Virus record (IMG/VR): IMGVR_UViG_3300025309_000419
Coordinates: 1 to 28,146 of that record
Length of the DNA: 28,146 bases
Source of the DNA: a virus
Reading direction: 5' to 3' (one strand)
Shown here piece after piece: positions 1,223 through 21,856 of this stretch; positions within the stretch are counted from its first letter, which is position 1; each line of letters begins with the position of its first letter. The position numbers and the translations under genes were made by a program. The notes under the pieces are model-generated. The model saw nothing but the letters and a program-made list of their open reading frames with translations. It was not told the DNA's origin and did not search any database.

Positions 1223-1264
1223 CTCATAGAAGATTGAACAAAACATTTTTTGGGAGCAGGGATT

Positions 1265-1954
1265 ATGAGGTTATTTGTTTTACTGGCACTGGTTTTCATC
1301 GTTACAAGTCCGGCAGTCGCTTTAACAGAATGGTATCTCGGCTATGCGGCGGGGTCGAATGATTTATATAGCCTGTGGAGTGGCTCGTTGAATTATGATT
1401 GTATCGGGCTGGGATGGAGTGGCACTGGCCGTCTGAAACAAATCAGCCCTTTTATCACGACTGTTAATGCCAAAGTTCTCGGTATGGGTTATTATTCTGG
1501 AAGCTACGGCTATTGGGAACTTAAAAACGGCACGGCAAATATCGCTCTCGGAGCAATTGTCGGTTATGCTGGTAATGCCGAAATAAAACAGCTTGCCGGG
1601 ACGTGTACGATAGGCAACGGAACTACTTTGGGTTATGTTGGCACTGACCCGCTTACCACTGGCGGCAATGGCATTTATTCTTTGCTCGGCGGCTCACTGA
1701 TAACCCCTGCGATTCAAATAAACGGCACAAGCAAGCTGAATATCACTGACGGCATATTGAGGCTTACAGGCGACAAGACGGCTCTGGTAAGCGGATATGT
1801 AACGGCAGGCAAGATAACAGCCTTTGACGGCGTTGGCTCTGTAATCGCTTCCTATGCTTCTGGATATACCACCGTCTCGGCGGTTATTCCAGAACCAGCA
1901 ACGATGCTTTTGGCCGGATTAGGGTTGATTATTTTTCAACGATTCCGGCGTTAG
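1265..1954 (+). CDS. Secreted PEP-CTERM protein (cargo)
   Basis: The 229-aa protein has an N-terminal signal peptide (MRLFVLLALVFIV..., likely cut after SPAVA near residue 22). A glycine- and tyrosine-rich body without recognisable catalytic motifs follows. The C-terminus is a classic PEP-CTERM sorting signal: PEPA at residues 209-212, a hydrophobic helix and the terminal QRFRR. In bacteria such signals are recognised by exosortase, which anchors or releases the protein at the envelope, so the host must supply the sorting machinery. I chose the ATG at 1265 because it directly precedes the signal peptide and follows a purine-rich GGGAGCAGGGA. The gene lies between the integrase and the tail module, the usual place for lysogenic-conversion genes. 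The body's function is unknown. Confidence 0.8.
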   Translation: MRLFVLLALVFIVTSPAVALTEWYLGYAAGSNDLYSLWSGSLNYDCIGLGWSGTGRLKQISPFITTVNAKVLGMGYYSGSYGYWELKNGTANIALGAIVGYAGNAEIKQLAGTCTIGNGTTLGYVGTDPLTTGGNGIYSLLGGSLITPAIQINGTSKLNITDGILRLTGDKTALVSGYVTAGKITAFDGVGSVIASYASGYTTVSAVIPEPATMLLAGLGLIIFQRFRR

Positions 1955-2412: not shown

Positions 2413-5400
2413 TTATTTTTTAAACTCTTTTAAAGATAAATAACGAACTCTGGCATAGGTGGTACCTGCACTTGTGGAAGTTACTTTCATATAATAAGTA
2501 TATGTACCTGCTGCCGGATTATCAGAGAAACTTCCACCAAACAACATTATTCCAGCCTGCCCCAAAGCGTCTTCGCTATCGTAAATTTCCGTACTACCCC
2601 TATATATCCTAAGCCTATGATAGTAACTCATCGAATAACTAAAATCAATATACACGGTGTTACCAGTGGTGGTAATTTCGACGCTCTGTATAGTAGTTTC
2701 CGTAGTGCCGCTTATTGCCAGTTGTGCTGCTGTGTAATTACTAACCGGTACAGTTACCGCATTATTTGCTATATTCGAGGTATCTACTTCCAAGTCTCCA
2801 ATTTTTGCTGACGTGATTGAGGCATCGGTAACTGTTAATTTTGTAGTTCCTGAATCGTTAAATAAAATAGCTGTCCAGTTTGCACCAGCGTCATTTGATA
2901 CACTTATCCCACTGGTGTTTATCTTCATTCTTGTATTTTCGCCGAGACTAAATAAAATCTCTCCCGATGTGATATTTCCGAGATTTGCGGAAAGAGAGGA
3001 CAGATATTCTGCGGTTATTGTCCCTGCCTGAATCAGTCCACCGTGCATTATTTTTTGAATGTTTGGGGCATAGACCGTGCCTGCTTCGTTAATACACATT
3101 ATCCATTTGCCAACACCAATGGCCGTGGCTAATGTATTTGTGCTTAAAAAGACAGTAGGCGACCCACCGTCCCAATATATGTATTTATCGGTAGTATTTC
3201 CCGCTGTGATTTCATAGCTTATGCCTGAAAGATTGAACAGTATCGGGTTTGTGCCATCCGTTTTCGACCAAGAGACTTTGCCGGCAACCGGAGTATTTGC
3301 GTTCCAAGTCAGATTGGTTGTTGACGGCGTGTCAATGTTCGGAATGTTTAGAATAGTTGACGGATACATTCTCTTGATTTCATCCCAAGTTATTGGCTGG
3401 GATGGATTGCCGCCTGCATTGCTTCCGGGCGATGTGTAATTTGTTATAGGAATAACCGGCGTTAAGTCATCGGTCTCGTACACTTCATCATTGTATTCCA
3501 AGCAGGTAAGCGTAAAGACCTGCTCCGCTGTCGGCTGAATTGCAATAACTCTGTATAGTTTTACAGGGCTTGTCTGTTCGCCGAAAATATAAACATCGTC
3601 AGCCTGTGGAGCGATTGCGAATGCTGTTGATACTACAATCCTGTTGAGATTATAAAGCCCGCCGTCAACGGCTACGTCTGGAATATCCTCATTGACAGTT
3701 ATGATTGTGTTTGTACCATCAAACGTAGAGTCGCCGTCCAGCGTATAAATGCCATCATTGCCAGTCGAATCGGCAATTTTAATCCTATCCTCATCTTTGT
3801 AGCAAAGGGTATAATTGCCCGCGATTTTGAATTGCTTAGTTTTATATGCCTCTATCGGCGGCGTAAAATCTGCTGTCCAGCGAGCGATGCCTTTAGAGAT
3901 ACGAAATTCGTCTATCCAGCCATTAAGCGGCCAAGAGGCTCCCTGATAGCCGCCAATTTCAAGTACAGCAGGTACATTTGTAAGTGCACCAATTGAGCTT
4001 GTTGTCGCGATAGCTATACCATCAAGACGAATAGTCATTGTATCGCCATTCCTAACCAACTCTATGTGATACCAAGTGTCCGCAACAATGGACACAGCAG
4101 CTCCTAAAGTTATATAAGGAGATTCACCTGTTGCGAATGCAATACCACCAGCGTAGTACCTAAGCCACCAATAGTTACCTACACCATCCGATTGCCCGCA
4201 AAAACACGCAACATCTACTCCTGTAGGCACGACTGCAAATCTAACCCAAAAATCTATCGTAAAATCACCACTTCCAAAATTCCAATCTTCTGAATCAGGA
4301 ATAGTTACATAATCAGAATCACCATCAAGCAAAAGAGAGGCAGTGCCGAACGCTTTTTGGGCGGTATCAAGCTGTGCCGTACCTTCAAGTGAAATCGTTT
4401 GCCCCGTTATGGCAATTTGGTCAGTAGTATCGGCATCAGTCCCGTCAAAATGGCATAGCAATTTAGTGTACGCATCTTCGCCAAAGCCCACAATGTCGTT
4501 GTACTGCGATAGAACCGCCTTTTGCTCTATATCGTCCGTATTTCGGCGAACATATAGACTGTAAAGAGCATCGGCTCTATACTCCAAATCTTTATCTACA
4601 ATAACATCCTGCTCCGAACCGGATAACACTCTGCCGCCGTCTCCCCATTGAGGGACATCGTGCTGAAAATAAATAATATCGCCGATTGTGCAGGCAATAG
4701 CATCGACATCGGCAGAAAATTCAATCGTTGATTTCAGTAGCCGATTTTGAGCAAGCTGATACATACCAGCCCGCCAAGCCTCTGATTGTTTAGAAATACC
4801 GAAAAGTTCAAGCGTTATTTTATTTGATATGTTTTCGATACCAACATCAAAAACCGTCAAAGGCACCCTGTTAAAGTCCTGCAATTCATCTCTGTAATTT
4901 ATTTCGATTTCAGACGCTAAATCCTGTTGCGGCAAAAATGTTTGTTTAAAGCTGTCCGCGTGAATGTTTCCAACGCTGAATAATTGAACAGCAGTACCGG
5001 CCTTGTCAATGGCTAATGTTAAATTTATTCCATTCCAAACGAGCACGCAGCGGGCAATTTCGCAGACTTTCCAAGCCGCTTCCCACATAGTCGTTGCTGT
5101 GTCAAATCCACCATTGAAAGTAATGCGTTTTTCCGTTGAACCCGCTCCATCGTCAACTAATTCATCGCAAAACAGAGCAAGTTCATAAAACTTTGCGATG
5201 TCAAGACGTGCAGGGTCTATCCCATCGTATCTCTCGATTTCGTATGGGTCTAATTCTGTGCCGCTGCCAGTAATAACCGGCTGTGTTAAAATGTCCCAGA
5301 GAACCCAAGCCGGATTCGTATTGTATTCCAAGCTCCAGGTTGAGCCACCAAATACGTTGACAATCGCACCCTCTTGTACGCAAGATACTGTTATTGAGCC

Positions 5401-6636
5401 TGACAACTGGTCTGTGGCAAGGGCTTCTATGCCAAGCAAGGATGTTTTCGGATAAACAAAATCATCGTTTATAACTTCACGAACCGAACCAAGTCGCAAC
5501 TGGTCGCCGTATCTCGACCCGGCTTCTGCGGTTGTTTTCGTAACCCTAATATCATATTTTTTACCATTGGTTATCGACACAGCAGAACCGCCTGTATAAG
5601 TTTCGCTCGATAAATATGATGCTCTTACCGCCGATGTTGATGATGCCGAAATGGTCTCCGCGACCAATATGTCCCAATCATTTAAACCCGATTCACTAAT
5701 CTCAATTTTTATACCAATGCCGTGCGAACTCAATCCGCCAGCATCGTTTGCGTAATAAATACCCCTATCAAAAAGCAATTCTATTTCCAGTGCATCAAAA
5801 TCACTATCCGGCGTTATGTATATGCGGGGCGTTCCATTCGCAACAACAATGTTTGGTCGATATTCTGGCTTTGTTTCTGTAAAAAAGCTGATTACTGTCT
5901 GGTCTATTGTACCAAAACGCTCCTCGGTAGTAACATTTGAATAATAACTTGCCGGCTGATTGTTTATTTGTATAGAATCGGAAACTATTCCTTTGACGGG
6001 TCCCGCACCAAGAGCAACCAGCATTTTTAAATACTGTTTCGTGCTATCTGTTTCGTCAACTTCGGTATGAACAGCAACTACATTGCCATACAGTTTGTTT
6101 TTACCGTAAAATTTTGGAGTAACAAGCCCTTGTTCTTGTGTAGTCTGCGGCGACCAGCCATATACTTGTGAGTTTTCCCAGTTATTATCGAAATTAGACT
6201 TTGCCCCCTTATTCATCATTGAGCTTATGAGCAGTCCACCGGCCACGACAACTGTAGCCATAGCGATTGTATAAGCCATAGTACCTGCCGTAAGTCCCAA
6301 CATCGTACCTGCAACGAACGGAGCGGCAATACCCGCAGTTGCAATCATAAGAAAAATACCCAAAAAACCTTTTCCGTTACCACCCCCATCGCCTCTTAAA
6401 ATCGGGACAAGTGCTACGCTATCCCCGGCTCTCGGTATCGTTATTTTCCAGTATTTTTCATCAACTATTTGGCCATTGACAGAAATTGCAATATCTACGT
6501 TATCAGGCAAAGTCATTAATCGGAGTTCGTGCAAGGTCTCCTGACGATAAGGCATTGTTGCAATTTCACGCTTTGACTTATCGAGCGGATTTTTAACTTT
6601 AATTATTTGGAGTTCTAACATAGCGATAGTACCCAT
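2413..6636 (-). CDS. Tail tip / host-specificity protein, lambda gpJ type, with a nested LamG domain
   Basis: This protein of about 1400 aa closes the tail-tip series, as J does in lambda, and should form the tip that contacts the receptor. The N-terminal 90 aa resemble the gpI-type segment fused to J in many phages. A glycine-rich hydrophobic stretch follows (about 92-140), then the J-like core with LVALGAGPVKGIVSDSIQIN and LAQNRLL...IGDIIYFQHDVP. A LamG jelly-roll domain lies at about residues 720-930, inserted into the J architecture. The C-terminal 300 aa are fibre-like (TSAKIGDLEVDTSNIANNA, then a beta-rich end domain). The start is ambiguous among TTG 6639, ATG 6636 and ATG 6621, all inside the preceding NlpC/P60 gene. 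LamG probably binds a surface glycan or glycoprotein. Confidence 0.88.
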   Translation of the reverse strand: MGTIAMLELQIIKVKNPLDKSKREIATMPYRQETLHELRLMTLPDNVDIAISVNGQIVDEKYWKITIPRAGDSVALVPILRGDGGGNGKGFLGIFLMIATAGIAAPFVAGTMLGLTAGTMAYTIAMATVVVAGGLLISSMMNKGAKSNFDNNWENSQVYGWSPQTTQEQGLVTPKFYGKNKLYGNVVAVHTEVDETDSTKQYLKMLVALGAGPVKGIVSDSIQINNQPASYYSNVTTEERFGTIDQTVISFFTETKPEYRPNIVVANGTPRIYITPDSDFDALEIELLFDRGIYYANDAGGLSSHGIGIKIEISESGLNDWDILVAETISASSTSAVRASYLSSETYTGGSAVSITNGKKYDIRVTKTTAEAGSRYGDQLRLGSVREVINDDFVYPKTSLLGIEALATDQLSGSITVSCVQEGAIVNVFGGSTWSLEYNTNPAWVLWDILTQPVITGSGTELDPYEIERYDGIDPARLDIAKFYELALFCDELVDDGAGSTEKRITFNGGFDTATTMWEAAWKVCEIARCVLVWNGINLTLAIDKAGTAVQLFSVGNIHADSFKQTFLPQQDLASEIEINYRDELQDFNRVPLTVFDVGIENISNKITLELFGISKQSEAWRAGMYQLAQNRLLKSTIEFSADVDAIACTIGDIIYFQHDVPQWGDGGRVLSGSEQDVIVDKDLEYRADALYSLYVRRNTDDIEQKAVLSQYNDIVGFGEDAYTKLLCHFDGTDADTTDQIAITGQTISLEGTAQLDTAQKAFGTASLLLDGDSDYVTIPDSEDWNFGSGDFTIDFWVRFAVVPTGVDVACFCGQSDGVGNYWWLRYYAGGIAFATGESPYITLGAAVSIVADTWYHIELVRNGDTMTIRLDGIAIATTSSIGALTNVPAVLEIGGYQGASWPLNGWIDEFRISKGIARWTADFTPPIEAYKTKQFKIAGNYTLCYKDEDRIKIADSTGNDGIYTLDGDSTFDGTNTIITVNEDIPDVAVDGGLYNLNRIVVSTAFAIAPQADDVYIFGEQTSPVKLYRVIAIQPTAEQVFTLTCLEYNDEVYETDDLTPVIPITNYTSPGSNAGGNPSQPITWDEIKRMYPSTILNIPNIDTPSTTNLTWNANTPVAGKVSWSKTDGTNPILFNLSGISYEITAGNTTDKYIYWDGGSPTVFLSTNTLATAIGVGKWIMCINEAGTVYAPNIQKIMHGGLIQAGTITAEYLSSLSANLGNITSGEILFSLGENTRMKINTSGISVSNDAGANWTAILFNDSGTTKLTVTDASITSAKIGDLEVDTSNIANNAVTVPVSNYTAAQLAISGTTETTIQSVEITTTGNTVYIDFSYSMSYYHRLRIYRGSTEIYDSEDALGQAGIMLFGGSFSDNPAAGTYTYYMKVTSTSAGTTYARVRYLSLKEFKK
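4235..4314 (-). repeat. 80-nt block identical to 7882-7961 (LamG, copy in the J-like gene)
   Basis: The block encodes the LamG stretch around TIPDSEDWNFGSGDFTIDFW. I find all 80 bases identical to the block at 7882-7961 in the L-like gene, in the same orientation and frame, while sequence immediately beyond diverges. A second related pair, 3857-3924 and 7486-7553, differs at about 8 of 68 bases yet encodes identical residues (WIDEFRISKGIARWTADF). Confidence 0.85.
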
Positions 6637-7048
6637 CAATTTTTTTAATCCAGTTTAGATTATCAAGCCTCTCGACAACAACGTTGCGTTTAGCCATAAC
6701 GTGTATAAATGTCCGGCAATCCTCTAATACCACGCCGACGTGCGTTACATACGGCGGCCTGACTTTGAATGTAACCAAGCAATATGGCTCAGGCTTTTCA
6801 ATGTTAATAAAATGCTCACATAAACCTTGTTCAATAGCTACTGAACGTTCTGACAAATCTTCAATCGGTTGTCGTTCTGGTATTTCGACACCTGCCCTGC
6901 GACATACCTCACAACACAAATTGTAGCAGTTCCATCCGGTATCGCCTGTGCCGTTAAGGTCGAACGGTTTGCCGATTAAATCAGTAATGTCGATTTTTGC
7001 GTCAGGCAATCCGCACGCTCCCGCTCCGCATTCCCGTAAATCCGCCAA
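6599..7048 (-). CDS. NlpC/P60 tail-tip peptidase, lambda gpK type
   Basis: This protein of at most 149 aa is a cysteine peptidase of the NlpC/P60 family, expected to cut peptide cross-links in peptidoglycan during DNA entry. Visible catalytic set: Cys41 in GWNCYNLCCEV, His103 in YVTHVGVVL and His116 in FIHVMAK. The family core begins at DLIGKPFD. Order L-K-J is as in lambda. The start is uncertain: TTG 7048 lies just after an in-frame stop, while TTG 7009 has GGGAG 8 nt upstream and would overlap the L-like gene by only 8 nt; I lean to 7009. The 3' end overlaps the J-like gene by about 38 nt. It is the only cell-wall hydrolase I can recognise in the window. Confidence 0.9.
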   Translation of the reverse strand: MADLRECGAGACGLPDAKIDITDLIGKPFDLNGTGDTGWNCYNLCCEVCRRAGVEIPERQPIEDLSERSVAIEQGLCEHFINIEKPEPYCLVTFKVRPPYVTHVGVVLEDCRTFIHVMAKRNVVVERLDNLNWIKKIDGYYRYVRTPNN

Positions 7049-8282
7049 ATCTTACGGAATTACTTCGCAACCGGCAGTCGGCTAATGTTCGTTTGCAAGT
7101 TGTTTCGGCTCCGGTATATCCACACTCACAAGATTTAAAATGCCAGCGACAATGCAAAGCTAAATATCGTTCCAACGGATACCTCCGCCGCAATGGATTC
7201 GGAGCACCAAGCGTAAACGTTACCCATTCAGCCGTGCTTTGGCAGGCCAAAATATCGCAGGTGATTTTGAGTTCGCTGTAATTTTCGGCAAGTAACTCAG
7301 AATTCACAATCGTTATATCAACAACAGAGCCGTTGCCACCGCTTAAAGTTTGTAAATAGGGCTGCAAAAGTCTTGTGATATTTCCAACTCTTAGTGTATA
7401 AGTCGGTATTTCACCTTTAGATGTTGTTTTGGGCGGGTCAAATTCAAAAGGAAAGGCTGTATAAAGATGCCCGTATGCGGCTGTCGGCGGTGTGAAATCT
7501 GCCGTCCAGCGAGCTATGCCTTTGGATATACGAAATTCATCTATCCAGCCATTGAAAGGTATAGTTGATAAATTTGAGCCTATGTTAAAAGGAGCAGTAG
7601 TTATTGTTAATGTTCCCGCTTGTGTTACAACTAAATCAGAAATTCCATCTACGCGTAAAGTGTAAACATCGCCACTTCTAATAAGGGAAATATGATACCA
7701 AGTATCAACAGCAAAATCTGATTTAGAACCATTATTGTCTATCGCCCAGGAAGTTCCGTTTATTGAAACTGCTAAATGCAAAGTACCGCTTGCTCCCCCT
7801 GTAAAGAATAATAAAATCGGAGAATAACCAGTACCATTTGATTTAGAAAAAAGAGCTTGATAGGGACTTCCTGTAAGCGAAGCAAATCTAACCCAAAAAT
7901 CTATCGTAAAATCACCACTTCCAAAATTCCAATCTTCTGAATCAGGAATAGTTACATAATCTGAATCACCATCTAACAAAAGTGATGCTGTGCCAAATTT
8001 CTTTTGTGCTGTATCAAGTTGTGCTGTGCCTGCGAACGTCGCCGCTCCCTGTACTGGGTCGGTGTATGCCGTTGCTTCGTCCGCTCCATCAAAATGAGAG
8101 CATAATTTAGTGTAGGAATCTGTTACAACGTCAGACGGAAAAACAACGTCTTCATTATTCCTGACAAGTTGCAAAACGGTTTCCGCATCATCGGTCAACG
8201 CAATATCGAGCAAAATTAGCCAAGCCGCTTTTGTGCTTAATTTATTTTTCTCTATTACCAGATTACTTGAAATGGTTTTAAT
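7002..8282 (-). CDS. Minor tail protein L with a nested LamG domain; probable ATT start
   Basis: Lambda gpL-type tail-tip protein. The C-terminal half carries hallmark motifs: AFPFEFDPPKTTSKGEIPTYTLRV, EWVTFTLGAPNPLRRRYPL and a Cys-rich end (HCRWHFKSCECGY...TCKRTLADC). In the lambda gpL family such cysteines bind an iron-sulfur cluster. The N-terminal part, KTISSNLVIEKNKLSTKAAW to LVRNNEDVVF, is also typical of the family. A LamG domain (about residues 53-267) sits between VVF and YTAFPFEF, which are contiguous in ordinary L proteins as I remember them. No ATG or GTG precedes the conserved N-terminus. The best start is ATT at 8282, 6 nt after an AGAGG; a TTG at 8213 would delete conserved residues. 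With ATT the product is 426 aa. The 3' end overlaps the NlpC/P60 gene. Confidence 0.87.
   Translation of the reverse strand: MKTISSNLVIEKNKLSTKAAWLILLDIALTDDAETVLQLVRNNEDVVFPSDVVTDSYTKLCSHFDGADEATAYTDPVQGAATFAGTAQLDTAQKKFGTASLLLDGDSDYVTIPDSEDWNFGSGDFTIDFWVRFASLTGSPYQALFSKSNGTGYSPILLFFTGGASGTLHLAVSINGTSWAIDNNGSKSDFAVDTWYHISLIRSGDVYTLRVDGISDLVVTQAGTLTITTAPFNIGSNLSTIPFNGWIDEFRISKGIARWTADFTPPTAAYGHLYTAFPFEFDPPKTTSKGEIPTYTLRVGNITRLLQPYLQTLSGGNGSVVDITIVNSELLAENYSELKITCDILACQSTAEWVTFTLGAPNPLRRRYPLERYLALHCRWHFKSCECGYTGAETTCKRTLADCRLRSNSVRFGGFTGMRSGSVRIA
7882..7961 (-). repeat. 80-nt block identical to 4235-4314 (LamG, copy in the L-like gene)
   Basis: Second copy of the LamG-encoding block described at 4235-4314. 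Full nucleotide identity over 80 bases between two separate genes, with divergent sequence between the conserved ends, suggests recent duplication or gene conversion. Confidence 0.85.
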
Positions 8283-14396: not shown

Positions 14397-15346
14397 TATT
14401 CCGGTGCCTCAATTTTTGTTTGTATCTCGCTTGTACTGGTAACTGTGTAATTCTGCTGAGATATAGCAGTATCGTTTGAATCATAAACATAGATTTTTCG
14501 GACTGTTCGGTCTTTTTCGTACTTATAAGCAAGGCGGCTATACAGCCAATACATCATCTCATCGCCCGCCCAGGTATTTGGGTCGCCAGTCGGTACAGAG
14601 AATTTGACTATCACGGGGTCAGTATTCGGGTCGAAAGTTGAATGAGTTATATTGTCATTAACATCGTTAATAGCTGTTTTGATTGCAGGCAGTCCGTAAG
14701 TTGGATTCCAAAGCCCCGTTATGACATAGCTATTGACATCTTCAACCTGTGAAGCGGTTGCAACACCGTAAGAAGTCAAAGCGTTTTGAGCCTGGGCATT
14801 GACATCCGCTACCGTCAATGTTGAAAATCCAGTTATCTTGAAATCAGATATACCACTAACAGACGTGCCTGCGACCTGAGAAATATCGACCTGCAATTTG
14901 CCAGAACCAGCGTAAAGTGAATCGTAGGTATTTGCTGGCAAAACAGTATAATCCTCACGGAAAGCCAAAATTGTGTCGGTTGATACTCCGCAAGGGTCTG
15001 TATATGACGTGAATGACAACATTAGATTGCCCGCCACATTTACATCATTGGGACAAAGCGTAAGTGTGGCAAGGCCGTAGCCTGTCAGCGTCAATATGTT
15101 ATCATTGGCATCGCCGGTTTTTTTAAGCGGCAAGATTCTGTTTTCGCTCCCGATTGCCAACTCACAGACAATATCATTCACGTCAAAGTCGTTATTGTCT
15201 GTCAATACCGCTTTGCCGTCCGACCAGTCCCGGAAATGTCCGACTGTGATAGTTGTGGCGGTATTTTGCCGCAATGTCGCTGCTGATACATAGGCTGCCG
15301 CCGCCAAAATTAAGACCAATCCTGTAATTTTTAAAATCCGTTGCAT
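14396..15346 (-). CDS. Phage structural-type protein with a signal peptide
   Basis: The first 22 of 316 aa form a clean signal peptide (MQRILKITGLVLILAAAAYVSA). The following beta-rich part and the VLPANTYDSLYAGSGKLQVDISQVAGTSV motif resemble a family of virion proteins, often neck or fibre-like, with PANVYDSL...LQVDVSQV. In the relatives I recall there is no secretion signal. The C-terminal part (WAGDEMMYWLYSRLAYKYEKDRTVRKIYVYDSNDTAI) resembles the end of such proteins. The ribosome site GGAG is 8 nt before the ATG, and the gene overlaps the dockerin/LamG gene by 16 nt, so it belongs to the late operon. Whether it is a virion part or an exported product is unresolved. Confidence 0.65.
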   Translation of the reverse strand: MQRILKITGLVLILAAAAYVSAATLRQNTATTITVGHFRDWSDGKAVLTDNNDFDVNDIVCELAIGSENRILPLKKTGDANDNILTLTGYGLATLTLCPNDVNVAGNLMLSFTSYTDPCGVSTDTILAFREDYTVLPANTYDSLYAGSGKLQVDISQVAGTSVSGISDFKITGFSTLTVADVNAQAQNALTSYGVATASQVEDVNSYVITGLWNPTYGLPAIKTAINDVNDNITHSTFDPNTDPVIVKFSVPTGDPNTWAGDEMMYWLYSRLAYKYEKDRTVRKIYVYDSNDTAISQQNYTVTSTSEIQTKIEAPE

Positions 15347-16911
15347 TTTCGTTTCTCCATATCATCATAGTATTTTTGTACAGATACATCTGTAAAAATT
15401 GTTATTTGCGGATGCCACTTGACATTATTACTGTCGCTAAAATTCCCTACAAGACCGAGTTTGCTATCAGTAATTGTATATCCCCCGGCCTCATTGCACA
15501 TAAACAGAACAGCAGAGGCTTTGCCGAATTCTCCCCAAATAACTTCATTGGCACTTTGAGTTCTGCTGCTCTGCCCCTGCATATAGCAAAGATTTTGTGT
15601 TGTGTCGTATCCAGTAAAGAATCTGATTTTGTCTATCTGGTCTTTGTGTGGATTCTTGCTGTTAAGACCAATAAATAGATTTCCATTATTAGCAAATGTT
15701 CCTGCGTAATTCACAGCAGAGGATTGTTCGTAGGTATCAACCTGAATAATTAAATTGTTATTATCGTAAATAAAACCTACTTCGTGCCATTGGCCATCGT
15801 CAATGCGACTGGAGTATCGAGCCTCAAAGACAAGACCGTTTGAATCATACAGATAAATTTTCGGCCTGCCGGAAACAATACCAATTTCGTAGCCCTTGCC
15901 GTCCGTGCCTCTTTTTTTCATCAGGCCAGAAAACGGTGTTCTGGTATTTACCCAAAAATCAATAGCCCAACCATCAACAATATCGAATTTGTCATTATCA
16001 GGTATTTCAACAAATCCCCTGCCGTTAAAAGCAAGACTGTCGAGTATGTTTGCCGCAACATCGAGCGAAATAGTTGCTACGTTTGAATCGCTATAACTGT
16101 CATTGGCCTTAAATTTAAAGCTGTCCGTACCGTTCATATCCGTGATAAACCAGACAATATCACCCCAAGAGCTTAAAGTATAAGGCACTTTGGTTATCAT
16201 ACCGGCTCCGCTTTTTGGGTCTTGCAATGTGCCGTGAGCGGGTAATTGAGTGATTATATATTTCAGTTTGCCGGGCGGGTCTGGCTGTCCATCATCGGTT
16301 GCGATTAAGGTTATGGCCTCTGTAATATAGGCCATAGCACTGACCGTCCGATTACTGACCGTTGGACTTATAGGCTGGGCATTGACTTGTATTGTAGCCG
16401 TGCCGACAGACAGGCCGCCACACGGCGGATTGAAGCCGGTATTATCGTTAGCTCCGACATTAAAAACTACCGTGCCAGTATAATTCGGGTCTGCATTGAA
16501 TTGGAATGTATTACCCGCTAAATTATGAGGTACAGAGCTAACGCCGGTAATTGTACCCTGATTAGCATCCGGCAAAGACCGTATGCTGTAAGTAATGCTC
16601 TGTTCGTCTGTGGCAGTTATGGTAAGCGTTCGGCTCGTGCCGGCCAACATTATCACGCCCGATATATTCTGGATTACAGGCGGGCTGTCGTTGCTATCTC
16701 TTGCGAGCCATTCGCTGGCCATAATCGCAAGGTCGCCCGCATCAACATTGCCGCTTTCGTCAATATCAGCCGTAACATCATCGGTTTGCCAGCCATTTGC
16801 CAAAAGAGCAAAATCCCGCAAATCAACACAGCAATCGCCATTGCGATTCGACCGTGAAGCAATCGCTCCACAAGCCACTACCAACAAAATTATTAAAATT
16901 AGCTTTTTCAT
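15331..16911 (-). CDS. Secreted multidomain protein: dockerin-like, Ig-like repeats and LamG
   Basis: Domains of the 526-aa protein in order: signal peptide (MKKLILIILLVVACGAIA), then a dockerin-like pair of EF-hand repeats at about residues 23-72 (GDCCVDLRDFALLANGW and DIDESGNVDAGDLAIMASEW), two Ig/cadherin-like beta domains (about 76-180 and 183-290, containing NYTGTVVFNVGANDN and GTDSFKFKANDSYSDSN), a LamG domain (about 293-445; FVEIPDNDKFDIVDGWAIDFW) and a short C-terminal tail. This architecture is typical of planctomycete surface proteins. It is nonetheless locked into the late operon: ATGA overlap with the upstream gene and 16-nt overlap with the downstream one. Glycan or surface adhesion is the likely function. 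The LamG part is not a near copy of those in the tail proteins. Confidence 0.72.
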   Translation of the reverse strand: MKKLILIILLVVACGAIASRSNRNGDCCVDLRDFALLANGWQTDDVTADIDESGNVDAGDLAIMASEWLARDSNDSPPVIQNISGVIMLAGTSRTLTITATDEQSITYSIRSLPDANQGTITGVSSVPHNLAGNTFQFNADPNYTGTVVFNVGANDNTGFNPPCGGLSVGTATIQVNAQPISPTVSNRTVSAMAYITEAITLIATDDGQPDPPGKLKYIITQLPAHGTLQDPKSGAGMITKVPYTLSSWGDIVWFITDMNGTDSFKFKANDSYSDSNVATISLDVAANILDSLAFNGRGFVEIPDNDKFDIVDGWAIDFWVNTRTPFSGLMKKRGTDGKGYEIGIVSGRPKIYLYDSNGLVFEARYSSRIDDGQWHEVGFIYDNNNLIIQVDTYEQSSAVNYAGTFANNGNLFIGLNSKNPHKDQIDKIRFFTGYDTTQNLCYMQGQSSRTQSANEVIWGEFGKASAVLFMCNEAGGYTITDSKLGLVGNFSDSNNVKWHPQITIFTDVSVQKYYDDMEKRKCNGF

Positions 16912-19323: not shown

Positions 19324-20472
19324 TTAGCTTTGGCCGCAACCACGACAAGCGAGATTCGGGTCAAGGGTCTTGACACCATACAGGATGTCAAGAGCAACCT
19401 TTACAGCCGAGGAATCGCCGACATAGAAGATTCTCGAACGAATCGCAAGGCCGGTTATTGGGTCTGTGATTGTCGCAATCTTCGCACCAAGTTCTGCCCC
19501 CATTTCGGATAGTGGGGCGGTTGCCAATGCAAATGCGTTTCTATGGAACGCAAGATTTGCACGGTGCGTGTCGATTCTCAAATCAACAACAGCATCGGCA
19601 AGGGCAGCCGCTTTTAATGGCGGTGTGATTGACAACGTAACAGTTGTATCAACCGTTGCATCGGCAGTAATCGCATAACGCTGCGTGTCGCCGGTAATAA
19701 CCAGTGAATCTCCAGCCTTAAACGTTCCGCCGTTTGTAATTGACTTGACAACGATACTTGTCGCACCTTTTGCGGCATTAGCGTTCAACGCACCGGCAAC
19801 GTCAGCACAAACACCGCCAGTATGAAGCGGTACGTTCTGGTTTGCGAAAATTTCCATACCAAACTTTGTGCCGAGAGAACCACGCATCAAGGTCTCAAGA
19901 CCAGCTTGGCCGGCAGTAGCGGCCTGATTAAACGCTGTAAGCCCCTGCAAGCCGAGTTGCAAGTTTCCGTCAACCATATAGTGTAGATTCCCAATATCAG
20001 AGACAGGCACTTTATTGTCGAACAGAACCTTATATACTCCGGTTATATCTGACAATGCCGTGCTACCATTGTTTGCAAGGTCGTAATACCAAGGAATGTC
20101 TTTGTACTTAGCACAAAGAGCCTGATCAATGTTATCGGCCAATGCGATAGCTGCCGGTCTGATATGCTCAGAGATAATCCGCTCATCTGACCACGCCAAT
20201 TCTTTATCTGTCAGACTGAACTTGACCTCTTTCCACTGGTCAAGAGTAATATCAACAGACTCTGTTTCCAAGTCCTGAGCTGAGGACGGAGCATTTTCGG
20301 CGGTAAATGTTGATGGTTTGCGGATGCTTACCGTCTGACCTTTGCCAAAAGCCTTTCGTTCTGCGTCATATCCACGATGGACACGGCCTGCCATACCAAG
20401 AGCCTTTTCAAGCTGTATCAAGGCTTCCTGTGCATAAAAAATCGGGTCATAAATCCCAAGTGATTGTGTCAT
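19324..20472 (-). CDS. Major capsid protein, P22 coat (gp5) type
   Basis: A 382-aa coat protein with an HK97-type fold expected to form the icosahedral head. Recognisable P22-coat-family segments are the N-terminal FYAQEALIQLEKALGMAGRVHRGYD, DITLDQWKEVKFSLTDKEL, IRPAAIALADNIDQALCAKY and the C-terminal LAFHRNAFALATAPL. An inserted beta domain lies at about residues 230-300 (AKGATSIVVKSITNGGTFKAGDSLVITG), comparable to insertion domains of this family. The C-terminus CRGCG carries two cysteines. The ribosome site TTTTAGGAGTTTTAAAATG is strong. Scaffold lies upstream and a strong hairpin downstream, fitting the most abundant virion protein. Confidence 0.9.
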   Translation of the reverse strand: MTQSLGIYDPIFYAQEALIQLEKALGMAGRVHRGYDAERKAFGKGQTVSIRKPSTFTAENAPSSAQDLETESVDITLDQWKEVKFSLTDKELAWSDERIISEHIRPAAIALADNIDQALCAKYKDIPWYYDLANNGSTALSDITGVYKVLFDNKVPVSDIGNLHYMVDGNLQLGLQGLTAFNQAATAGQAGLETLMRGSLGTKFGMEIFANQNVPLHTGGVCADVAGALNANAAKGATSIVVKSITNGGTFKAGDSLVITGDTQRYAITADATVDTTVTLSITPPLKAAALADAVVDLRIDTHRANLAFHRNAFALATAPLSEMGAELGAKIATITDPITGLAIRSRIFYVGDSSAVKVALDILYGVKTLDPNLACRGCGQS

Positions 20473-21328: not shown

Positions 21329-21342
21329 AACATATACTCCTT

Positions 21343-21395
21343 TGGCTTCCCGCCATAACTTTTAAGAGGTTTCCCGCCTCTCGGACTTCCCGTCC
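21343..21395 (-). promoter_or_regulatory. Leader with three hairpins sharing a GGGAA loop
   Basis: In the scaffold mRNA leader, three consecutive stem-loops can be read on the - strand. They are GGAC-GGGAA-GTCC (21395-21383), AGAGG-CGGGAAA-CCTCT (21381-21365) and TGGC-GGGAA-GCCA (21355-21343). Stems differ but the loop sequence is the same, a sign of selection on loops displayed by stems. The last hairpin ends one base before the AAAGGAG ribosome site. The arrangement suits a translational operator for an RNA-binding protein; the GGA-in-loop pattern is that bound by CsrA-type proteins. Confidence 0.6.
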
Positions 21396-21449
21396 TAATT
21401 TATTCGTAAGCAGGCAACACACCTGCATTAAACGCTTTATGCGGGCAAT

Positions 21450-21492
21450 AAAAAAAGACGGAGTTAGTGAGTTAGCACTAACTTGCCGTCTT
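21450..21492 (-). terminator. Strong intrinsic terminator between head-morphogenesis and scaffold genes
   Basis: On the - strand AAGACGG pairs with CCGTCTT and inside it AGTTAGTG pairs with CACTAACT (CTAACT loop, two unpaired bases). Seven T residues (21456-21450) follow. It would stop transcripts arriving from the packaging genes before the scaffold/coat genes. Confidence 0.8.
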
Positions 21493-21559: not shown

Positions 21560-21856
21560 TTATCTCGAATACTTTCCGCAACATTTTCTATGTTGCCTGC
21601 CTGAGCCACATCTACAAAGCTCTTTACGCTTATTACCGCCTATGCCCATTCGCTCTCGCATTGTCTTGGCTTTTCTTAAAAAACTATCAACATCATCAGT
21701 GGCTATGCCGTTTTTCTCAGCGACAATCATTTTCAGATTATCGCAATGGTCAGCCATTTCATCATCTGTCGGCTTATGGCCGCCACGAACCTTTGCGAGA
21801 AATTCCCGCGTATCTGCCAGTGTCGGATTTACAACTGTTTCGGTATTATTAGTCAT
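21560..21856 (-). CDS. Small SEC-C zinc-motif protein
   Basis: A 98-aa protein with a helical N-terminal part (TLADTREFLAKVRGGHKPTDDEMADHCDNLKMIVAEKNG) and a C-terminal SEC-C motif. The zinc ligands are visible in CRCGSGRQHRKCCG (Cys81, Cys83, Cys92, Cys93). SEC-C motifs are best known from SecA, where they mediate contacts with SecB and the ribosome. Here it is attached to a short domain I do not recognise and lies last in the packaging/portal operon. AGGA precedes the ATG by about 8 nt. A role in adapting or recruiting a host factor to head assembly is speculation. Confidence 0.72.
   Translation of the reverse strand: MTNNTETVVNPTLADTREFLAKVRGGHKPTDDEMADHCDNLKMIVAEKNGIATDDVDSFLRKAKTMRERMGIGGNKRKELCRCGSGRQHRKCCGKYSR

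Follow-up and report, generated by a model that had tools for sequence, protein, structure and literature searches.

The leader of the head scaffolding protein gene in the viral DNA analysed here (the window, a virus record of 28,146 bases taken whole) carries three small hairpins with different stems and one shared pentaloop. Such hairpins make up a family of sites that act in cis as RNA, probably as translational operators, and that extends much more widely than the window, to the scaffold and often also the coat leaders of many tailed phages. Their appearance is that of a hitherto unreported site at which a protein would dock to control the timing or the amount of head protein.

The initial annotation had placed three hairpins of different stem and identical GGGAA loop at 21343-21395, and all of them are present there, on the minus strand (Table 1). 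On that strand hairpins 1, 2 and 3 are followed by AA, by GGAG and, eight bases on, by the ATG (21328) of the scaffold gene, after which the coat gene begins at a distance of 52 nt. Folded alone, the 72-nt leader forms exactly these three hairpins (-18.2 kcal/mol, z -1.8, 13 of 200 shuffles being as good); for a 125-nt stretch of the window the energy is unremarkable (z -1.1, 31/200 shuffles as good), and hairpin 3 pairs there instead with an upstream CCCGC. Folding energies of leaders are in general mildly better than those of shuffles (z between -0.9 and -2.5). The proof of the window hairpins is thus that given by comparison with relatives, as energy by itself would not suffice. Rfam 15 gave no match above the gathering score in the window and in 13 related loci, and the leader alone, searched against Rfam at E<=10, gave two sub-threshold matches and none above that score. 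The fourth, upstream hairpin may represent a second conserved loop class, since a pentaloop like its own occurs at the same place in three of the seven relatives compared (GTGTT in L013, GCGTT in L016 and L009).

Table 1. Features of the window around the scaffold leader, with the basis of each assignment.
Feature	Position	Strand	Basis or remark
P22-type coat protein gene, 382 aa	19324..20472	-	PF11651, E 4.6e-30; phrog_283, E 4.4e-70
Head scaffolding protein gene, 267 aa	20525..21328	-	phrog_206, E 7.6e-37
Shine-Dalgarno (SD)-like GGAG of scaffold gene	21337..21340	-	sequence
Hairpin 3 (H3), TGGC-GGGAA-GCCA	21343..21355	-	two bases 5' of GGAG; 40/44 pairs kept
Hairpin 2 (H2), AGAGG-C.GGGAA.A-CCTCT	21365..21381	-	C.A mismatch closes the loop; 64/66 pairs kept, 11 relatives
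Hairpin 1 (H1), GGAC-GGGAA-GTCC	21383..21395	-	sequence; 44/44 pairs kept, 11 relatives
Fourth, upstream hairpin GCAGGT-GTGTT-GCCTGC	21410..21426	-	possible accessory element
Terminator-like stem and T-run, upstream of leader	21453..21483	-	pattern scan: 1 found vs 0.2 in shuffles

Relatives were collected for the comparison by several routes. A first query with the scaffold returned two far relatives, both without such hairpins; of the 172 relatives from a scan with the coat protein 80 were retained, and further scans added more. Among the resulting 98 entries (the window, 80 loci and 17 later ones), 82 offered sufficient sequence upstream of a usable scaffold start, and removal of 17 near-identical leaders left 65 non-redundant ones. 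A larger set of 75 leaders consists of these 65, nine picked from 16 further leaders, and L034. Start codons were set by rule, some of them by hand, and the carriers in the 75-leader set include five that rest on one doubtful hairpin (L045, L071, L079, L080 and L084).

The recurrent feature in these relatives is a pentaloop of the form GNRAN (GGGAN, GAGAN, GTGAN, GCGAN or GGAAN) set on stems of almost any sequence, and GGGAA is one member of this wider loop class. With stems of at least 4 pairs, 60 GNRAN hairpins were counted in 32 of the 65 leaders, compared with 3.8 in 500 dinucleotide shuffles (sd 1.9, max 11), and at least two of them occurred in 21/65 leaders as against 0.14 leaders in the shuffles; the eight commonest pentaloops in this set are all GNRAN. 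A search that presupposed no motif led to the same loop length, 21 of 75 leaders containing at least two pentaloop hairpins identical in the first four bases of the loop, as against a mean of 0.35 and a maximum of 3 leaders in 100 shuffles. It gave none for loops of 4, 6 or 8 bases in these leaders and seven leaders for loops of 7, six of them scoring with five-base loops too. L022 and L035, which belong to the 21, display tandem hairpins of the same architecture around another shared core, CGAG, that is, a different loop code. Flanking stems of at least 4 pairs accompany 58 of 350 GNRAN pentamers in leaders, only 4 of 215 on the antisense strand and 43 of 2188 in coat genes, while other pentamers in leaders have them in 112 of 7062 cases. 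Within the loops the A at position 4 is fixed, and position 5 is T in 38, C in 18, G in 14 and A in 9 (n=79). Most often 13-15 nt separate the end of the proximal hairpin from the start codon, and in some leaders the loop of this hairpin, GGGAG, is the SD itself, carried on stems as diverse as TCACC/GGTGA, ACACC/GGTGT, AAGTC/GACTT, GCTAC/GTAGC and GCGAC/GTCGC.

The stems covary. Almost all expected pairs are formed in the window's clade, across 11 leaders (Table 1), whereas sliding the 3' arm by 1-3 bases leaves at most 21/44 pairs for H1, 31/55 for H2 and 19/44 for H3. Two to four pair types are found at five of the six positions of H2 and several also in H1, H3 varying at its outer pair only; elsewhere, L046 and L047 differ by one A-T to G-C compensation. 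Within a phage the loops are uniform. Leaders with two or more GNRAN hairpins number 36 (25 from viral or prophage loci, 11 from isolates); among them the same four-base core is shared by 34 of 51 within-leader pairs, a value reached by 0 of 10,000 permutations (mean 13.6, sd 3.0), while an identical stem arm is shared by 0 of the 51. Between L036 and L125, whose coats are 78% and scaffolds 59% identical, all three stems are kept and every loop is switched, being GAGA in the former and GGGA in the latter. Covariation, constancy of the loop within a phage, this concerted switch and the variety of stems under the SD loops are all predicted if selection acts on a loop read by one partner. The loops had been proposed from the window to be selected as recognition sites, a claim open to refutation by uncompensated stems or an unconserved loop in relatives; the comparison found the stems compensated and the loop class conserved, and did not refute it.

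In 75 loci (544 kb), 23 arrays lie in scaffold leaders and 2 in scaffold-coat gaps; of those elsewhere, 16 are on the same strand and 8 on the opposite one. The 16 include two that prove to be scaffold leaders once the start or boundary is improved (L031 and L042) and one, in L048, that is a tail-gene leader. The latter array, at 8933-9035 of L048 (G002, minus strand near 20296), comprises three hairpins with the loop GGGAT, and the gene downstream of it looks by eye like that of a major tail protein. In L039, L041, L082 and L122 hairpins precede the coat gene and not the scaffold gene. Specificity of GNRAN rests on the leaders, whole-record cluster counts being no higher than for one control motif: in seven viral records raw clusters numbered 15 for GNRAN, 15 for the control CNYCN and 12 for the control NTYNC, in a scan whose intergenic label is unreliable owing to long spurious ORFs over high-G+C DNA. 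Two clusters were dropped, G003:38304 lying inside coding sequence and L025:3793 in the glycine-rich part of a scaffold gene.

The feature is also found in cultured phages. Searches with scaffold proteins led to YuA-like phages, and 22 isolates were picked by hand from their match lists, so that the 13 of 22 with GNRAN hairpins before the scaffold gene represent no frequency. The carriers are YuA, PaMx28, Epa5, QDWS359, Donnerlittchen, Elanor, Sonora, ZQG1, V45iii, Ab18, AIIMS-Plu-RaNi, CN2 and RcSimone-Hastad; no GNRAN hairpins before the scaffold gene were found in phiAxp-1, PSV3, KL1, SPLA2, Loki, R5C, Pan1, MAR10 and P22. In phiAxp-1, KL1, Loki and P22 at most 22 nt separate the scaffold gene from the gene before it, while in R5C, Pan1 and SPLA2, and by its annotation also in PSV3, there is room for hairpins yet none is present. 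The coat leader bears GNRAN hairpins as well in PaMx28, YuA, Epa5, Ab18, AIIMS, CN2 and RcSimone; in Sonora they are uncertain, with one forming part of a terminator-like stem. The gene after the scaffold gene lies on the opposite strand in PaMx28 and four others, and their coat gene therefore belongs to another unit. The first 50 kb of YuA contain six intergenic GNRAN hairpins on the + strand, two before the scaffold gene, one before the coat gene and three A+T-rich ones elsewhere.

Considering the position of the hairpins, the behaviour of their loops and the neighbouring genes, we infer a cis-acting RNA operator that would be read by a phage-specific protein and would control translation of the scaffold gene and often of the coat gene, a reading that we regard as reasonably probable. 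In it, the scaffold leader would form two to four small hairpins, each presenting the five-base loop G-N-R-A-N, probably folded like a GNRA tetraloop with one extra base, and an RNA-binding protein specific to the phage would recognize the loop and not the stem. The last hairpin adjoins the SD or holds it in its loop, and for this reason the bound protein would be expected to control access of the ribosome to the scaffold gene; in many phages the coat gene would be controlled likewise through its own hairpins. The effect would most likely be repression by excess unassembled head protein, by which supply would be matched to assembly. A link of the hairpins to the expression of head genes, of the kind advanced by the initial annotation, is supported.

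As to the protein, the scaffold itself would be the best single candidate, a choice made tentatively. In the 75 leaders a phrog_206 scaffold accompanies 46 of 46 carriers and 22 of 29 non-carriers (L031, whose leader was later corrected, counting among the 29), while the coats of carriers fall into two families, P22-type and phrog_212; hence the scaffold is the best shared candidate. Its model for the window (mean pLDDT 75, pTM 0.38) has a long helix between a small N-terminal part and a C-terminal part, and a fold search with it gave no PDB match at E<=0.001 and no known RNA-binding fold. At the scaffold C-terminus there is a conserved stretch, YRAAKEAATKAG, that by eye looks like the arginine-rich helix of lambda N; non-carriers conserve this stretch also, and it may therefore be a coat contact instead. 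Possible as well, and to be taken as speculative, is a fuller scheme in which phrog_206-type scaffolds, which are paired with at least two coat families, would be sequence-specific RNA-binding proteins reading GNRA-type pentaloops on their own and on the coat mRNA. Free scaffold would then titrate translation of head genes against assembly, and loop and protein would co-evolve into separate loop codes (GGGA, GAGA, GTGA/GCGA, GGAA and CGAG). Autoregulation by the scaffold alone would not explain L039, L041, L082 and L122 or the tail-gene array.

Hairpins before the coat but not the scaffold gene, and before a tail-like gene, would suit a more general late regulator. Such a dedicated phage RNA-binding protein for abundant late virion genes might be N-like, placing an arginine-rich helix on boxB-like GNRA pentaloops and leading to antitermination, activation or repression; we consider it unlikely, while noting that arrays do occur before scaffold, coat and, in G002/L048, tail-protein-like genes and that N peptides read GNRA-fold pentaloops (PMC12550061). 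The P22 boxB has its extra base inside the GNRA, and GNRA-like pentaloops with the extra base after it are known, facing protein in RNase MRP (PMC12550061). In the present loops the extra base follows the GNRA, contrary to boxB, and the position of the hairpins against the SD suits translation. Antitermination through boxA was rejected, as a boxA-like pattern is without enrichment in hairpin-bearing leaders (3/39, against 6/36 of the others, the reversed-pattern control giving 4/39).

Quite improbable is a passive role, in which stable 5' hairpins would shield the most abundant late mRNAs or leave the start site accessible with no specific partner. In its favour, the genes concerned are presumably highly expressed and GNRA-type loops are stable; it leaves aside the fixed loop length of five, the core that is uniform within a phage and differs between phages, and the concerted loop switch of L036/L125 on unchanged stems.

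The initial annotation had put forward host CsrA/RsmA, repressing head genes through a GGA in the loop, and had called for a search of the host for csrA, which is indeed present in its genome. GGGAN contains GGA, as do 44 of 71 loops, and several sites near an SD make up the CsrA arrangement (PMC4005645). Recognition by CsrA/RsmE, however, needs A(N)GGAX (PMC4005645, PMC7652899), and the A before GGA is absent from the window loops; ANGGAN hexaloops occur in just 4 of 75 leaders. Moreover, GGA is absent from 27/71 GNRAN loops and from every such loop in 11 of 39 leaders, the scaffold-leader loops of YuA-like isolates (GTGA, GCGA, GAGA) all being without it, and the acidobacterial MAG with the hairpin-bearing prophage L088, a possibly incomplete genome, has no csrA match. 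CsrA as the general reader of the loops was accordingly rejected, and repression of the head genes by it is very improbable; the autoregulating virion protein, which the same annotation had named second, is the better alternative. Finally, DNA operators for a transcription factor are hardly credible, even with inverted repeats in intergenic DNA and an active promoter annotated over the scaffold leader in the YuA record, as arms that vary freely around a conserved asymmetric spacer are the reverse of a DNA operator and the loop motif is strand-specific.

The coat gene of the window is 100% identical to one in a contig of Planctomycetes bacterium GWC2_45_44 (locus L086). Hairpin 1, searched for with one mismatch allowed, has a single, exact occurrence in this host genome, on contig C101, which is taken to be the prophage copy, and it is therefore common to no host gene. 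Several other features of the phage were observed along the way. A Mom-like DNA modification protein is encoded at 27156-27839 (-) (phrog_1384, E 2.1e-56). Two proteins of the tail region, 2413-6639 (-) and 7002-8213 (-), contain a near-identical stretch, GTASLLLDGDSDYVTIPDSEDWNFGSGDFTIDFWVRF, by eye LamG-like, which suggests a duplication, and the protein of the late region at 15331-16911 (-) has a stretch that by eye appears dockerin-like, NGDCCVDLRDFALLANGWQTDDVTADIDESGNVDAGDLAIMASEWL. The protein at 1250-1954 (+), adjoining an integrase-like gene (1-1185), ends in a PEP-CTERM-like tail, VPEPATMLLAGLGLIIFQRFRR, and is perhaps host flank or cargo. Between a MuF-type gene and the leader lies a small protein, 21560-21856 (-), with no Pfam or PHROG match at E<=0.01 and a cysteine-rich end, CRCGSGRQHRKCCG, SEC-C-like by eye.

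The balance between scaffold and coat synthesis in tailed phages has been an open question since scaffold expression in P22 was reported to be coupled to assembly. The hairpins supply a concrete RNA site, carried by YuA, PaMx28 and other cultured Pseudomonas phages, that makes the question directly testable. Should a phage protein read the loop, the natural loop variants would provide a set of separate RNA-protein pairs. A literature search, which left most subscription journals uncovered, found neither these hairpins nor P22 scaffold autoregulation described, and a term search of a recent paper on the P22 scaffold gave nothing on the latter (PMC12005531).

Comparison with known systems places the GNRAN hairpins near several of them. 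Like CsrA/RsmA leader sites they comprise several hairpins, at the SD and ahead of it, whose loops are rich in purines; they differ in that GGA is not conserved and the required preceding A is absent. With the N-boxB system of lambda and P22 they have in common a GNRA-type pentaloop hairpin in a phage leader, with loop classes that vary between phages; here, on the contrary, two to four hairpins stand together in an array, placed at the start codon of a head gene. In work of King, Casjens, Wyckoff and colleagues (1978-1985), the P22 scaffolding protein was reportedly autoregulated post-transcriptionally in a manner coupled to assembly. In the window and its relatives the hairpins lie next to a scaffold gene that, as in P22, just precedes the coat gene, P22-type in the window, and control of scaffold expression would likewise be tied to assembly. 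Nonetheless, the P22 scaffold gene follows the portal gene after only 13 nt, a gap devoid of GNRAN hairpins, and the RNA site of P22, if any, must differ from them. In the coat operators of RNA phages and the translational operators of T4, a hairpin at the start site is read by a virion or replication protein; the hairpins described here likewise stand at the start site, while showing one loop on many stems, in arrays, in dsDNA phages, and before both scaffold and coat genes.
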